Below are positions 1,322 through 6,456 of a stretch of 6,456 nt of DNA, one piece after another. The stretch is from Flavobacteriaceae bacterium (GTDB taxonomy: Bacteria > Bacteroidota > Bacteroidia > Flavobacteriales > Flavobacteriaceae): NCBI GenBank assembly GCA_002401385.1, contig NVSY01000029.1:26512-32967 (forward strand), in the 5' to 3' direction. Position numbers and translations under genes: made by a program. The notes below the pieces were generated by a model. It saw only the letters and a list, made by a program, of their open reading frames with translations. It ran no database searches and was not told the DNA's origin. Each line of letters opens with the position of its first letter. Within the stretch, counting starts at the first letter, position 1.

Positions 1322-2101
1322 ATGAAAAATTTACTCGTTGCTTTTGTCTTATTGTTTGTTCATGTTTCTCAGGCAAATGTTGTGGTCTTGAACGGGCTGA
1401 CTCATGTTCATAAGTCCAATGTAGGAACAGAAATCACTGGGGTGATAAAGCTTAAAAACACAAAAGATACGGAACAGCGTGTCATTATTTATTTTAACGA
1501 CCTTTTTCAGCCTTGTAACGGTGAAACATTGCTAACTGGGGATACTACTCACAACAGATCTTTGGTGAAATGGTTGTCTACTAATGTAACTGATAAAGTA
1601 TTGAAAGGCAATGAAGAGTATGAGTTGTTGTATACTATTTCTGTCCCTAATGATGTGAATTTATCAGGTTCTTTTTGGGGGGTACTTATGGTAGAAGTGG
1701 AAAAGCCAATTCGTGAAGAAGAAACCGAATACGGTGTGAAATTAGAATCTAAAGTACGTTATGGAATCCAATTGATTGCAGATTTAGGAGAAAAGGAACC
1801 CGCAATACTTGATTTTTTTGACATCAAATTTCAAGATACAGAATTTGGAAAAAATGTGTTGGTAGTATTAGAAAATCAGGGTGGGTTTTATGCTCAGCCT
1901 ACTATTATTTTAGAAGTTTTTTCTTTGGATGGAACCACTGTGAAAAAAGTTGAGGTGAAGTTTAAAAAGATTTACCCTTCTTTTTGTAAAGAGTTTTTAT
2001 TGGATATTTCTGGAATTGAAAAAGGAGAATATAAAGCCGTTGTAGTGGCGGATTATGGAGAAGATATGTTTGCTATAGATCTTGACCTTACTATAGAATA
2101 A
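1322..2101 (+). CDS. Exported two-domain beta-sandwich protein, putative pilus-type periplasmic chaperone
   Basis: The 259-residue product has a signal peptide (MKNLLVAFVLLFVHVSQA, probable cut A18/N19), giving a mature protein of about 240 residues. That size suits two Ig-like domains, roughly residues 20-130 and 150-258, as in fimbrial chaperones. The first domain resembles chaperone or DUF916-type sandwiches: GVIKLKNTKDTEQRVIIYF is a typical conserved-N strand pair. It ends in VPNDVNLSGSFWGVLMVEV (119W), in the place where chaperones carry the strand before the domain hinge. The following KVRYGIQLIADLG (144-156) sits where chaperones have their second-domain entry strand. Cysteines 65 and 222 are far apart and may not pair. 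It is the first gene of the operon and lies 46 nt before the usher-like gene. The chaperone role is inferred from size, fold pattern and neighbours; no single catalytic-type motif proves it. A different secreted Ig-like protein is the main alternative. Confidence 0.6.
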   Translation: MKNLLVAFVLLFVHVSQANVVVLNGLTHVHKSNVGTEITGVIKLKNTKDTEQRVIIYFNDLFQPCNGETLLTGDTTHNRSLVKWLSTNVTDKVLKGNEEYELLYTISVPNDVNLSGSFWGVLMVEVEKPIREEETEYGVKLESKVRYGIQLIADLGEKEPAILDFFDIKFQDTEFGKNVLVVLENQGGFYAQPTIILEVFSLDGTTVKKVEVKFKKIYPSFCKEFLLDISGIEKGEYKAVVVADYGEDMFAIDLDLTIE

Positions 2102-2147
2102 GGCTAAATAAAGTAACATTCTTATAATTTTATCTTGATTTTTAGAT

Positions 2148-4865
2148 GTGAAATTGTTTGTGAAATTATATTGGAATGTAAAACACTGGTTGTTGCTTGT
2201 TGTTTTTATGAGCTTTTCTACGATGGCGCAGGAAGGTGAGTTTACAGTAAGCGTTTCCAAGCATAAAGAAGAATTGAGCCCCGGTGCACATTATACCCTG
2301 TTTTTTAGCATTACTAATAATTCAAAAAAAACACGTGAAATTTGGAGTGACTTATCGTTGCCTTCTTCTTTTAGGTTATTGCTAAAACCTAGAGTCTTAA
2401 CTGTAAAACCGGGTCAAATGGCACGTCAAATGTTAACATTTAAAGTTAGTAAACAGGCTGCTTCTGGAAATTCGAAGGCCGTTTTTTCTGTCCTTGAAAA
2501 AGGGATAGAAAAGGCGCGTTTATCGTTAGATTTTACGGTTATCCCTATCCATAAATTGAATGTTTCCCTTGTCAAGTCACCGGGGTATTTGAGGACAGAA
2601 ACCGAATTTTCATGTATTTATAGTATATCAAATTTAGGAAATCAAACCGAAGAGGTGCAATTTGAATCTAAAAACGCATTGGATGTATTTCCGAGGAGTG
2701 TTCTCATAAAATCAGATTCGACGGTTTTGGTAACTGTGAGACAACGTGTGCCGGAAACTATTGGTAGGACTACCATAGTTTTGAATAATTTGAGAGCTAG
2801 AGTTGTTTCTAAGGATACCGTTTTTTCTGATAGAATTGCTATTTCAGTGTATCCAAAAGGACTAAAAAAACCAGATCTTTTTCATCGTTTTCCGGTGGAG
2901 TTTTCTCGAATTTATGGAAATTTAAAAGGCTTAGACACCATCACTTTTTTTAAGTATAAAATTAGTGGAAATGGTTTTTTGGATGTCAATGAAAAGCATC
3001 ATTTGAGTTTTGAGTATTCGGGGCCAAACCAAATTGAAATTCCACGTTTTGGAGAGTATGAGTACTATTCGGTTTCTTATAAGAATAAATGGATGGAAGC
3101 ATCTGTAGGAGATGTAAATTTTTCTTTGTCCAGTATGACCGAAAATTCTAGATCGGGGAGAGGTGTGGTGTTGGTGTTTAAAAACAAAAAATCTGAATGG
3201 ACTTCCTTTTTTGTTCAACCACGATTTACAAACCAAATTTCGGATGCTTACGGATTTAAAAGCACCTATTTTTTGTCTCAAAAATTTAATCTTAAAGCGG
3301 GGTTTATGAGTCGGAGTTTGCACGAAAGTGACTTGACGTTTTCTTCTAAGTTATTTAGTTTAGAGAGTAATTACGGTTTTAAAGGCTTAAAAATGAATGC
3401 GGAATTGGCTTTTGAAAGTAATCCTTTTAGTCAGGGATGGGGAGGAGCGGCTTCGGTATTTTATCAACATAAGAAAATAGATATAGGTAGTAGTATTCAG
3501 TATTCTGACAAAGATTTTAAAGGGTATTTAAGAAATAGTAAACAGTTGTTATCTTACGCAAGATGGCGGGTTTCTCCTAAAGTCCAAGTTTCTGGCACAG
3601 TTTTTCAAACAGCAATCAATCCGGTTAAGGATACAATTAACTTTACTTCCTTCCCTAGAATGAATAAATACCAATTAGGGGTTTCTTATCGAATCAATCA
3701 AAACCATCGCTTAAAACTATCTGGGTATTTTAGGGAAAAGGAGGATCAACAGTCACCAAAGTCTTTTGAGTTTGAAGAGCGTTTATTGAGTGTTTCTTAT
3801 CAATTTAGACATAAAAATAAATTGGACATTAGTTGGCGCAATCAGTTTGGGAATTCTATCAATTATTTGGCGGATAGCGTTGGGTCTAGAAAAGTGCTAT
3901 TTTCTACTGCGAATTTTCGTTATAATTTTTCCAATCGCCTAATTTTGGGGCTGAATGGAACGTACCAATCAACCAATAAAAACGCGGTGGATAATGCACT
4001 GGTACAGTCCTTTTATTATGGAGGGAATTTGCAATATTTTATGTACGATGACTTAAATATTAGTCTTTTTTATAAAAATGATTACGATTTTGATGAATTT
4101 ACACAAGAGCAAAGTTTTGTAGAAGCAAGTTTAAATTATCAATATAAAAATAGACATAAAATTGCGCTGTCCGCTGCGGTGTCTAGTTTGTCTGCAGAGG
4201 TAGATCAAAAAGAGTTGTTTGTGAGTGCGGCGTATACTTTTGTGTTGAATGTTCCTTTGTCTAAAAATAAAAAGGTAGGTGCTATTAATGGAATTATTAA
4301 AGATAAAAAAGGGAAAGGATGTGAAGGTGTAATGGTGTTTATAGATGATAAAATTGCTGTTTCAGATAGTAAAGGTCGTTTTTATTTCTATAATTTATTA
4401 CCCAAAGAATATTTGATTTCAGTAAAACAGTCTAGTTTACCTAAAGGAAAAATTATACTTACTAACTTGCCTTTTACCGTCGATGTGCTGCCCAATAAAG
4501 AAAGTGATGTTTTATTTCGTTTAGGACCTTCGGCTAAGGTGTTTGGGAAAGTGGTTTTTAAACGGTCTAAAACTACCGAGTCTACCAAATTCGTAAAAAC
4601 TTTGCCAAAAATGATTGTGAAAATTATGAAAGAGGATCAGAAATTTTTGACTCAAATGGATAAAAATGGTTATTTTTATTTCAATGAGTTGGAACCTGGT
4701 ACATGGAGGGTAGAGCTTTTAGTAAAAGGGCTTACAAAAGACTTTTCTTTTGACACCATAAAAAAGACGATTGAGCTAAGGTCGGGAGAAAGAAAACAAC
4801 TAGTTTTTTACGTTACTAATAAAAAAAGAGCGGTGCGTAAAAGCAAAAAAACATTTAAATTATAA
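2148..4865 (+). CDS. Usher-like outer-membrane beta-barrel protein with N-terminal Ig-like and C-terminal carboxypeptidase-regulatory-like domains (putative)
   Basis: The 905-residue product probably starts at GTG 2148. An in-frame stop at 2136-2138 excludes anything much longer, and the ATG at 2146 is out of frame and meets TGA at once. The signal peptide is likely cut at A27/Q28. Residues about 30-130 and 133-232 look like two NEW3/Ig-like sandwiches (SPGAHYTLFFSITNNSKK; LKPRVLTVKPGQ). Residues about 245-703 alternate polar and aromatic residues like an outer-membrane barrel, closing with AAYTFVLNVPL. Early in the barrel, ASVGDVNFS (G321-D322) followed by SGRGVVLVF (337-339) recalls the 'GD ... 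rGv' pattern of pilus ushers. Two C-terminal sandwiches follow, about 710-785 (SDSKGRFYFYNLLPKEY) and 795-893 (DKNGYFYFNELEPGTW), both of carboxypeptidase-regulatory type, then a lysine-rich tail. Length matches ushers (about 800-900). No plug domain is recognisable and no TonB box is seen. The usher role is inferred; another transport or surface-barrel function remains possible. Confidence 0.6.
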   Translation: MKLFVKLYWNVKHWLLLVVFMSFSTMAQEGEFTVSVSKHKEELSPGAHYTLFFSITNNSKKTREIWSDLSLPSSFRLLLKPRVLTVKPGQMARQMLTFKVSKQAASGNSKAVFSVLEKGIEKARLSLDFTVIPIHKLNVSLVKSPGYLRTETEFSCIYSISNLGNQTEEVQFESKNALDVFPRSVLIKSDSTVLVTVRQRVPETIGRTTIVLNNLRARVVSKDTVFSDRIAISVYPKGLKKPDLFHRFPVEFSRIYGNLKGLDTITFFKYKISGNGFLDVNEKHHLSFEYSGPNQIEIPRFGEYEYYSVSYKNKWMEASVGDVNFSLSSMTENSRSGRGVVLVFKNKKSEWTSFFVQPRFTNQISDAYGFKSTYFLSQKFNLKAGFMSRSLHESDLTFSSKLFSLESNYGFKGLKMNAELAFESNPFSQGWGGAASVFYQHKKIDIGSSIQYSDKDFKGYLRNSKQLLSYARWRVSPKVQVSGTVFQTAINPVKDTINFTSFPRMNKYQLGVSYRINQNHRLKLSGYFREKEDQQSPKSFEFEERLLSVSYQFRHKNKLDISWRNQFGNSINYLADSVGSRKVLFSTANFRYNFSNRLILGLNGTYQSTNKNAVDNALVQSFYYGGNLQYFMYDDLNISLFYKNDYDFDEFTQEQSFVEASLNYQYKNRHKIALSAAVSSLSAEVDQKELFVSAAYTFVLNVPLSKNKKVGAINGIIKDKKGKGCEGVMVFIDDKIAVSDSKGRFYFYNLLPKEYLISVKQSSLPKGKIILTNLPFTVDVLPNKESDVLFRLGPSAKVFGKVVFKRSKTTESTKFVKTLPKMIVKIMKEDQKFLTQMDKNGYFYFNELEPGTWRVELLVKGLTKDFSFDTIKKTIELRSGERKQLVFYVTNKKRAVRKSKKTFKL

Positions 4866-4871
4866 TTGACC

Positions 4872-5411
4872 ATGAGAGTTATTATTATCATGCTATTTTG
4901 TAGCAGTTCCTTGTTGTTTGGACAGCGGAACCAAAATGATGTTACAGCAAGTTTTGAGCTACAAGAAATTGCCCTATTAGGTCTAGAGCCGAGAAATACA
5001 AACGTTGTGTTGGGGCTGGCTGCTCCCAGCAATTCTGGAGATAAAGCGGCTGTTGTGATGGCGAATAATAGTAAATGGCTCAATTTTACTTCTGCGGTTA
5101 GACAAGGAACCTCTGGACGGAACATCAGTGTAAAAATTGAGGACGGTAACATCCCTAAAGGGCTTGTTTTGAAATTAAAAACTACAGCTTATCAAGGGGG
5201 AGGAAAAGGAGATTTGGGTTCGAATGTACAAGAAATTACACTGGGTTACCATTCTCAGGTCATTGTGAAAAATATTGGAGGAGCATTTACAGGGAATGGG
5301 AGTGGGAATGGGTATAAACTGACCTATTTTTTAGAAATTCAAAATTATGACGCATTGGATGTGAAATCCTCCGAAACGATTACTGTAAGTTTAACATTAA
5401 GTGATTTTTAA
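4872..5411 (+). CDS. Small exported beta-rich protein, putative pilin-like subunit 1
   Basis: I start this gene at ATG 4872, 6 nt after the previous stop; a TTG two codons earlier is possible but less likely. The product is 179 residues with a signal peptide cut near G17/Q18, and the mature part has no cysteine. It is predicted to be almost all beta strand, with two glycine-rich loops (about 107-117 and 136-147). The end, YKLTYFLEIQNYDALDVKS (148-166) then ETITVSLTLSDF, resembles the closing strands of spore-coat-U, DUF4402 and CS1-type pilins, in which a short aliphatic strand follows a 'Y..dtitv' element. The N-terminal stretch after cleavage (DVTASFELQEIALLGLEP) alternates hydrophobic residues and could act as a donor strand. 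No T9SS C-terminal signal or lipobox is seen. Position directly after the usher-like gene suits a major subunit. The pilin role is inference; family membership needs a profile search. Confidence 0.55.
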   Translation: MRVIIIMLFCSSSLLFGQRNQNDVTASFELQEIALLGLEPRNTNVVLGLAAPSNSGDKAAVVMANNSKWLNFTSAVRQGTSGRNISVKIEDGNIPKGLVLKLKTTAYQGGGKGDLGSNVQEITLGYHSQVIVKNIGGAFTGNGSGNGYKLTYFLEIQNYDALDVKSSETITVSLTLSDF

Positions 5412-5412
5412 T

Positions 5413-5892
5413 ATGAAATATCTGTTAGTTATTTTGTTGTTGCTTTCGGGCTTTGTGAGAAGTCAAGAGATAAAAGCCACTTCTGGTTGGTATCAAATTA
5501 TGCGTGTGAGTGATATCGAAAATGCAGGAAACGACTATCCTTTGTATGTAGAAAGTAAGAAAAAAGAGACAAAGATTTCCGTAAAGGCATTTCCGAAGTC
5601 TAAGCAAATGGATTTGTATGGATTTTTTACTGTTTTTGTGCACCATGAGCCTGTTTTTTGGGATGAGTCTTTAGAGTTGTCTGTGAGAAGAACATCAAAA
5701 GGTAAAGGAAAAAAAGGATCTATTAATGGAGGAGAAACATGGCAGCAAGTACATCGATTTGCAGGTGATTTTTTTAGACTTGTAGGAAAGGGAAAAAATG
5801 TGGATGTGCAATATCGAATTAAAGGGCTGTCTGTGTTATTACCGGTAAATACATATAGTACTGAGGTGGTATATACCGTCTTAAATTTGTGA
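5413..5892 (+). CDS. Small exported beta-rich basic protein, putative pilin-like subunit 2
   Basis: The ATG at 5413 lies 1 nt after the preceding stop. A GTG at 5401 in the same frame would overlap the upstream gene and add four residues before the signal peptide, so it is rejected. The 159-residue product has a signal peptide MKYLLVILLLLSGFVRS, cut near S17/Q18, and no cysteine at all. It is rich in lysine and arginine, with a basic glycine/lysine loop at 92-103 (RRTSKGKGKKGS), and in aromatic residues (GFFTVFVHHEPVFWDE; AGDFFRLV). The C-terminus, VQYRIKGLSVLLPVNTYS then TEVVYTVLNL, parallels the end of the preceding protein. It has the look of a pilin end ('Y.I ... V.tYstevvYtV'). It is the last gene of the operon, so a minor, tip or anchor subunit is a reasonable guess. 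I do not recognise a named family. Confidence 0.5.
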   Translation: MKYLLVILLLLSGFVRSQEIKATSGWYQIMRVSDIENAGNDYPLYVESKKKETKISVKAFPKSKQMDLYGFFTVFVHHEPVFWDESLELSVRRTSKGKGKKGSINGGETWQQVHRFAGDFFRLVGKGKNVDVQYRIKGLSVLLPVNTYSTEVVYTVLNL

Positions 5893-6003: not shown

Positions 6004-6456
6004 ATGGCTGTAAATATATTATTTGTAGAAAATGAGAACTCCCCCGAGTCAGAGTCGTGTAAGCTACTGTGTGACAGTAGACTGATAAAATACACAACAG
6101 TTAAGGACCTGGAGGCAATGTCTCAGTCTATATTAGATGAGTCTTATACACATATAGTTTGTCATTTAAATTGCGATACTATTGAGGTTTCGATTCTCAA
6201 GTCTTTAAATTTTAATATTCCTGTACTTGTAGTTTGTAATAGTAATGTTGAATCGAACTTAACAAATGTTCATTTTTCTGTAGTTCAAGAACCATTGACA
6301 TATAAAATGTTGTTTGATTTCATTGCTCAGAAATCTATTATTTCTGATTCAACTTTAGAAAAATATGCGATGGGTGATCAGGATTTTATTGATCAGATGA
6401 AACAATTGATAATTGAAGAGTTTGAGGAAAATTTATCAAAGATTCCGTCTTTTTTA
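6004..6456 (+). CDS. Signalling protein: degenerate receiver-like domain plus start of an Hpt domain (C-terminus beyond window)
   Basis: The frame is open from ATG 6004 to the right edge (151 codons shown) and has no stop in the window. Residues 3-108 follow the receiver beta/alpha pattern: first strand VNILFVENEN, a third strand THIVCHLN (49-56), a fourth strand IPVLVVCNS (72-80), and VVQEPL (93-98). The phospho-acceptor aspartate expected at the end of strand 3 is replaced by H54, and the invariant lysine before proline by E96, so this is probably a pseudo-receiver that cannot be phosphorylated normally. Residues from about 114, STLEKYAMGDQDFIDQMKQ and onwards, match the first helices of an Hpt domain, where the consensus reads 'L....gGD.eF...l...f'. 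The phosphorylatable histidine would lie just beyond the edge. No Shine-Dalgarno is visible. It likely takes part in a phosphorelay; the link to the upstream operon is not established. Confidence 0.7.
   Translation, partial: MAVNILFVENENSPESESCKLLCDSRLIKYTTVKDLEAMSQSILDESYTHIVCHLNCDTIEVSILKSLNFNIPVLVVCNSNVESNLTNVHFSVVQEPLTYKMLFDFIAQKSIISDSTLEKYAMGDQDFIDQMKQLIIEEFEENLSKIPSFL
6064..6080. repeat. Perfect 7-bp inverted repeat inside the receiver-like gene
   Basis: CTACTGT (6064-6070) and ACAGTAG (6074-6080) are exact inverse complements around a GTG loop. The element falls about 60 nt after the start codon, within codons for KLLCDSRL. It could form a small mRNA hairpin or be incidental; a 7-bp perfect inverted repeat is not rare over several kilobases. 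Confidence 0.45.

Follow-up and report, generated by a model that had tools for sequence, protein, structure and literature searches.

The window analysed here, a stretch of 6,456 nucleotides (nt) from contig NVSY01000029.1 (26512-32967) of a Flavobacteriaceae genome (assembly GCA_002401385.1, 82.3% complete), carries four adjacent genes on its forward strand between positions 1322 and 5892. Together they probably encode a chaperone-usher-like pathway in which donor-strand exchange would build a surface fibre and a protein of the WxLIP (DUF916-DUF3324) superfamily is the predicted chaperone. The first gene (1322..2101, an open reading frame (ORF) of 259 amino acids (aa)) encodes this chaperone-like protein and the second (2148..4865, 905 aa, GTG start) an usher-like outer-membrane barrel protein. 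They are followed by a pilin-like small subunit, p1 (4872..5411, 179 aa from ATG; 4866-5411, 181 aa from TTG), and a second small subunit, p2 (5413..5892, 159 aa from ATG; 5401-5892, 163 aa from GTG). Taking the ATG starts at 4872 and 5413, the intergenic spacings are only 46, 6 and 1 nt. Judged by eye, each of the four proteins opens with a hydrophobic signal-type segment and none shows a lipobox. The original prediction, made from the DNA alone, had described four exported-protein genes in tight order, all with signal peptides and without a lipobox; the ORF list confirms the arrangement, and our inspection of the proteins agrees with the rest.

The chaperone-like protein

On its own, the window chaperone matches no Pfam family at E ≤ 1. 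A profile of its family, however, placed two PDB chains of EfmWxLIP1 first (9i25_C, E 1.8e-10; 9i1y_A, E 2e-10), spanning positions 38-249 of 261 and therefore both domains; the next, unrelated chain came at E 0.42. Compared by hhalign with seven WxLIP proteins of lactic acid bacteria, the family scored 97.4% over 217 columns, and the controls stayed at 1.4% or less (20 column shuffles) and 1.8% (reversed alignment). The lead Pfam matches at E ≤ 0.1 among 55 relatives, the set used for all Pfam and column counts of the chaperone, were WxLIP_HBD (18/55, best 3.8e-13) and WxLIP_PGBD (18/55, best 1e-6); fn3_5 was matched in 15 (best 3.8e-5). A family search for PF06030 found nothing in the source genome at E ≤ 1, a limit at which 9 of 14 control genomes were positive. 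On the profile comparisons with EfmWxLIP1 and the seven WxLIP proteins, we place the chaperone-like protein in the WxLIP superfamily, which is known from the WxL systems of Gram-positive bacteria; this placement goes beyond the original prediction. Its claim of a two-domain, chaperone-like protein holds as well, since both domains align with EfmWxLIP1, and PMC10599100 describes the two domains of such proteins as Ig-like. No publication on structures 9i25 and 9i1y was found by title in the openly licensed literature. An unannotated stretch of CP069367.1 (101791-102450), labelled as a Klebsiella pneumoniae plasmid, is 72% identical to a piece of Enterococcus EfmWxLIP1; this record is possibly mislabelled or contaminated.

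The likeness to WxLIP extends to both Ig-like domains in the same order, homologous over the 217 columns. According to PMC10599100, WxLIP also has a C-terminal transmembrane helix and the motif NQIDKxxxYFDLK. By eye, the window chaperone has neither: it ends in DMFAIDLDLTIE, and its mature N-terminus reads NVVVLNGLTHVH. It further differs in being encoded beside a predicted outer-membrane barrel and in having no detectable WxL-domain partner, with PF13731 not found in the source genome at E ≤ 1.

Column conservation among the 55 relatives points to a candidate donor strand, G1-like, at residues 139-151 (1736..1774). Positions 139, 141, 145, 147, 149 and 151 are hydrophobic in 55/55, position 143 is Ser or Thr in 53/55, and R146 is present in 51/55. 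The sequence pattern of this strand, with its alternating hydrophobic residues where domain 1 ends, resembles that of chaperone-usher chaperones: a regular expression finds a similar alternation in 5/8 Escherichia coli chaperones, for example LAIISRIKLYYRP in FimC. In PapD, the donor strand and an adjacent basic residue hold the subunit. PMC4654587 reports one proline as invariant across all chaperone-usher chaperones. Directly after the donor-like strand, where it would be expected, no proline is conserved in the 55 relatives; the conserved prolines lie at 109 (46/55), 129 (43/55) and 219 (54/55).

The only cysteines of the window chaperone are Cys65 (1514..1516) and Cys222 in the second domain (1985..1987). 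Within two columns of these sites, 35 of the 55 relatives have both, 19 have neither and 1 has a single one, uncorrected for relatedness. Given this co-occurrence, a disulfide bridging the two domains is likely. One relative, at L026:333-1502, is a 389-aa chaperone with an acidic, Ser/Thr-rich insert between the two domains.

The barrel protein

The AlphaFold2 model of the 905-aa protein (pLDDT 87.1, pTM 0.62) has the layout of an usher. Model strands and weak Ig-like Pfam matches indicate two N-terminal beta-sandwich (Ig-like) domains at residues 32-234 (2241..2849). The predicted barrel follows at residues 245-706 (2880..4265), with 26 strands in a continuous run and at most 14 residues between consecutive strands, as assigned by DSSP on the model. 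Two C-terminal transthyretin-like domains occupy residues 711-891 (4278..4820); they are seen as model strands and as a match to PF13620 (CarboxypepD_reg, 6.5e-8 at 713-762), a family also present in 52/52 barrel relatives. The N-terminal Ig-like part itself resembles the chaperone family (hhalign 90.8%, 106 columns). In Foldseek, ranks 1-9 were all FimD (E 1.1e-15 to 3.6e-13) and PapC came at rank 11. The usher-like barrel of the original prediction is thus borne out by the modelled fold, and we regard the large protein as usher-like by predicted fold, though not by sequence. Longer barrel proteins of 1304, 1341 and 1212 aa are encoded at L028:8602-12516, in L076 and in L079; that of L028 has an extra N-terminal stretch of ~400 residues that opens with a lipobox-like ending.

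The small subunits

The two small proteins are homologous (p2 family versus p1 family, hhalign 97.2%, 156 columns). In the VIA structural comparison of the p1 model, chaperone-usher pilins made up 30 of 50 rows, at middling Z, and several of the alignments start at about model residue 31 and pilin residue 13. The N-terminal hydrophobic segment of p1 is unpaired and without a strand in the monomer model. For p1, the earlier pilin-like description agrees with these pilin rows and with the unpaired segment of the model.

Within this segment, residues 24-30 (VTASFEL; 4941..4961) are the predicted donor strand of p1, marked by alternating hydrophobic columns. For the alternation, 61/74 p1 and 90/105 further subunits could be anchored on a P-x-V-A-L-L motif, and the rest were dropped. 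In the anchored proteins, positions -1, -3 and -5 are hydrophobic in 0.92-1.00 and positions -2, -4 and -6 in 0.05-0.19. Subunits not encoded directly behind a barrel, such as that at L033:16066-16638, have a His seven residues before the P of P-E-V-A-L-L in 85/90 anchored sequences; at the same site of p1, Val is commonest (24/61 anchored).

A second feature separates p2 from the others. The distance from the Q at the end of the signal to an EAG motif has a median of 21 residues in p2 (n=41), 36 in p1 (n=47) and 38 in further subunits (n=84), with ranges of 18-28 for p2 and 33-54 for p1, so that p2 is ~15 residues shorter; proteins without a recognisable Q or EAG (27/74 p1, 21/105 further subunits, 32/73 p2) are left out of this count. 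On this sequence feature p2 is predicted to be the terminal (tip) subunit.

Neither a fimbrillin Pfam family nor DUF4402 (PF14352) was matched at E ≤ 0.1 by 107 p1-type and 51 p2-type proteins, in contrast to a small protein beside a class-II chaperone (see below) in L146, which matches DUF4402 at 2.5e-7. A protein search with the p1 alignment, scored on the 7995 candidates that had the most words in common with it, gave 68 relatives, 0 of them with a precomputed Pfam domain. The missing fimbrillin domains speak against a type V (FimA/Mfa-like) fimbria made from unusual precursors, which we consider very improbable. Type V fimbriae are the well-described kind in Bacteroidota; the present set shares with them the phylum and, as predicted here, a fibre of exported beta-rich subunits, and weak Mfa2 matches occur in 2/55 chaperone relatives (best 0.013). 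It differs in having no lipobox by eye and in possessing a chaperone and an usher-like barrel; type V assembly is not known to use such a barrel.

The superfamily of the chaperone raises another explanation, namely a Gram-negative counterpart of the WxL complex, in which a WxLIP-type protein stays permanently bound to the small proteins and the barrel exports a non-polymeric adhesive coat. PMC10599100 describes WxLIP as a stabilising partner of WxL, and two Gram-positive loci are ordered small WxL, WxLIP, large WxL, which resembles the order small subunit, WxLIP-type protein, barrel. Homology to WxL domains was considered for p1 and p2 and, on the evidence so far, rejected, with hhalign against nine WxL-type proteins at 2.7% over 16 columns and 2.5% over 32. 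By eye, the C-terminal ends of the two kinds are similar (YTATLRYTLSDL in L029 compared with YTTTLTWVLSDTP in L159); the VIA list for the p1 model, 50 rows long, contains no WxL chain, which excludes nothing. Besides this lack of profile similarity, the PF13731 search in the incomplete source genome and the missing transmembrane helix argue against such a complex, and the conserved alternating segment with a shorter last subunit fits a chain best. We therefore think it unlikely, and prefer a fibre assembled by strand exchange.

Conservation and distribution of the gene set

Loci were retrieved with the chaperone alignment alone as query: of 199 pattern matches in the genome collection, 187 could be confirmed, from which the 80 best loci were retained. 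Barrel, p1 and p2 genes were then recognised by profiles built from the window proteins. After five rounds the p2 profile had spread to the whole small-protein family (278 matches), so that position in the locus was used to distinguish p1 from p2. All four genes were present in 67/80 loci. Counted singly, the barrel gene was found in 78/80, p1 by profile in 73/80 and p2 by profile in 67/80, and some small gene stood in the place of p2 in 73/80. Among the 13 incomplete loci, six are cut by a contig end (L041, L046, L053, L085, L087, L094); five have a last-place small gene that the profile did not recognise (L059, L064, L067, L102, L103); in L086 the barrel gene is split, with both small genes behind it; and L088 has no recognised small gene 3' of the barrel. 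Median gaps, in gene order, are 30 nt (75 loci), -4 nt (74) and 2 nt (73). In 60/80 loci the 1.5 kb upstream of the chaperone gene contain an extra small-subunit gene, and in L096 the chaperone gene is last, not first. The association of these genes is more than chance.

The carriers among the 80 loci include Flavobacteriaceae, Chryseobacterium, Dyadobacter, Runella, Flectobacillus, Saprospiraceae, Draconibacterium and Mariniphaga and, outside Bacteroidota, one Chlorobiota and one Spirochaetales metagenome-assembled genome (MAG). Of the named relatives, a Flavobacteriaceae MAG (L032) is closest, with a chaperone 83% identical to that of the window. In a sample of the phylum, the chaperone profile matched 53/296 genomes at E ≤ 0.001, and 21 still matched at E ≤ 1e-30, the source genome included. 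No barrel gene was found in the stretch read in five chaperone-positive genomes of one family (f31) and in G309. The barrel profile matched 186/198 genomes; among the matches listed, most span only the transthyretin-like domain, and the chaperone profile is therefore the better count for the phylum. Three subunit genes occur in the source genome, of which two lie outside the window (one at C38:92224-92772), and 17 other carriers have two to seven each.

A set that is perhaps a related system is found on Deinococcus deserti plasmid 2 (L158:7396-11783). There, the gene of a chaperone relative (annotated FimB/Mfa2; tblastn E 4e-11) precedes that of an 839-aa protein in which carboxypeptidase-regulatory domains are recognised, and small hypothetical proteins are encoded on the flanks; no p1-type match was found on the plasmid. 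Among the best-ranked titles and abstract openings of the openly licensed literature, we found no publication that describes the present gene set or links WxLIP with an usher.

Relationship to chaperone-usher systems

A second class of Bacteroidota proteins provides an indirect tie between the present chaperone family (class I) and chaperones of the PapD type. These class-II chaperones are nine sequences (L133-L141) chosen by their match to the class-I chaperone profile. By hhalign their match to WxLIP reaches 97.4% (250 columns). The match to eight E. coli K-12 chaperones scores 95.9% (211 columns), or 94.4% without EcpB; 30 column shuffles of the latter comparison gave at most 0.5% and a reversed alignment 0.1%. 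Taken singly, the two subsets scored 92.6% and 86.1% when compared with the E. coli chaperones; for WxLIP the figures were 91.4% and 90.3%. Against the PDB, the class-II profile placed WxLIP first (3.3e-6), with the chaperone FaeE at only 0.45.

The partners of the class-II chaperones come from six loci, where place and size served to select them: six barrel proteins, twelve small ones and four long ones. The twelve small proteins as a profile match p1 (96.4%), and the six barrels match the class-I barrel family at 100% over 839 columns, though three of them (L145, L146, L148) are unmatched by the class-I barrel profile. In the four long proteins, of 341-477 aa, the C-terminal part is homologous to class-II subunits (98%). 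L142, L143, L145 and L147 carry small subunits, a chaperone, one such long protein and an usher-like protein, and the class-II loci look like a system with a two-domain tip adhesin.

Several observations weigh against a chaperone-usher-like reading. Direct profile comparison detects no similarity of the window proteins to their E. coli K-12 counterparts: hhalign gave 5.3% for the chaperone family against the eight chaperones, 0.4% for the barrel family against seven ushers, and 35.5% over 24 columns for the subunits against eight subunits. The usher family PF00577 is not matched by the 905-aa protein at E ≤ 1; it is likewise missing from the source genome at E ≤ 0.1 (the E. coli control was positive) and from the best 25 of the 58 families listed for the 52 barrel relatives. 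A plug inserted in the barrel is a feature of FimD and PapC, and the modelled barrel, with its 26 strands and longest inter-strand stretch of 14 residues, has no plug-sized insertion. The Foldseek matches to FimD came at low TM-score, and other barrels (porins, transporters) tie with ushers in VIA. When each N-terminus was compared with its own random shuffles without anchoring, the alternation in the subunits was weak, the pattern appearing only in the anchored columns. As to class II, its 99.9% match to the class-I family is by selection, because the nine sequences were picked on that profile. The class-II chaperones also match the Ig domain of the barrel protein (94.7% over 103 columns). 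One-domain matches are therefore generic, and the argument for the link rests on the lengths of the two-domain matches. Finally, the reversed control of the class-II barrel comparison still scored 35.9% over 123 columns, with six shuffles at 0.3% or less.

The ties with porins and transporters would suit a barrel that is a secretion channel; the small proteins would then act on their own, secreted or at the surface, and neither strand exchange nor a fibre would be involved. Subunit genes away from a barrel gene, such as the one at C38:92224-92772 and one in L023 without an usher match, point the same way. Against this stand the nine FimD chains at the top of Foldseek, the membership of p1, p2 and the dispersed subunits in one family, and the alternating N-terminal segment common to anchored p1 and further subunits, which a soluble secreted protein would not need. 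A secretion channel of this kind is, in our judgement, quite improbable.

We thus favour a chaperone-usher-like fibre. What the set has in common with chaperone-usher systems (FimC-FimD, archaic Csu, alternative CFA/Ecp) is a compact operon, a large barrel modelled with N- and C-terminal beta-sandwich domains, and subunits whose sequences show an N-terminal alternating segment that is shorter in one of them. It would work like a chaperone-usher pathway, yet we file it under neither system: not as chaperone-usher because the family models do not recognise it and the plug is missing, and not as a WxLIP system because the membrane helix, the motif and the WxL partner are missing. The original prediction had left open whether the set is related to chaperone-usher pili or convergent with them; relatedness gains ground for the chaperone, through class II, and usher and subunits have no detectable direct sequence link. 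The text of PMC4654587 open to us names archaic systems from Proteobacteria, Cyanobacteria and Deinococcus-Thermus, not from Bacteroidota.

Proposed pathway

After export, the F1-G1-like hairpin of the chaperone (139-151, with R146 between) would complete the unfinished beta-sandwich of each subunit. Such strand donation has a predicted precedent in the superfamily of the chaperone: PMC10599100 reports an AlphaFold2 prediction in which a hairpin of WxLIP, as an added strand, completes the sandwich of WxL. The chaperone-subunit complex would then dock on the barrel protein, either at its N-terminal Ig-like domains or at its C-terminal transthyretin-like ones. There, the N-terminal strand of the next p1 would displace the chaperone strand, and the chain would therefore lengthen outward through the pore. 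Since p2 could accept but not donate a strand, it would leave first, as the tip, and the upstream and dispersed small-subunit genes may supply alternative shaft subunits. The separate, chaperone-usher-like fibre route of the original prediction comes through on the three points that could have overturned it, as a barrel is modelled in the large protein, the chaperone aligns over both domains with a WxLIP protein and the p1 model leaves its N-terminal segment unpaired; the fibre itself is what we infer.

Neighbouring genes

On the 3' side (window 6004-6456; L022:12515-13960), the operon is followed by genes for a protein with a marginal Hpt match (24.8 bits against a cut-off of 24.6) and for a LytTR response regulator, and then by a further small-subunit gene. 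A LytTR response regulator also precedes the operon at L028:5140-5853; phosphorelay control of the subunits by these neighbours is possible. Divergent to the operon, on the minus strand (3-1040), is a gene for a DsbD-type thiol:disulfide protein (PF02683, PF11412, thioredoxin), which is complete at L022:5587-7551. Because the chaperone has a co-varying Cys pair, a tie between the two is conceivable. Behind the downstream subunit gene, L022 also has a HupE/UreJ_2 gene (PF13795; 14726-15310). PMC12537917 reports DUF916 genes as frequent neighbours of one PF13795 group, and these could be the present chaperone family. Promoter-like sites in the window are at chance level (15 observed, 16.1 expected), and terminator-like sites number 7 against 3.0 expected.

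Implications

A common origin may lie behind these likenesses. We suggest, tentatively and with the balance somewhat against it, that chaperone-usher pili and the Gram-positive WxL system descend from one donor-strand chaperone, and that the Bacteroidota set is a fourth, undescribed chaperone-usher lineage with a WxLIP chaperone, class II being still PapD-like. As part of the same tentative reading, either WxLIP would be a chaperone whose usher was lost, or PapD would be a WxLIP protein to which an usher was added.

If the proposed pathway is right, Bacteroidota and some neighbours (the Chlorobiota and Spirochaetales MAGs, and the related-looking Deinococcus plasmid set) would own a chaperone-usher-like fibre route, one that Pfam models do not report in the window, and several unannotated gene families would gain a function. 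It would also explain the predicted fit of the WxLIP strand into WxL. A WxLIP-type chaperone would tie two surface-assembly systems together, and the origin of donor-strand chaperones would become testable across the Gram divide.
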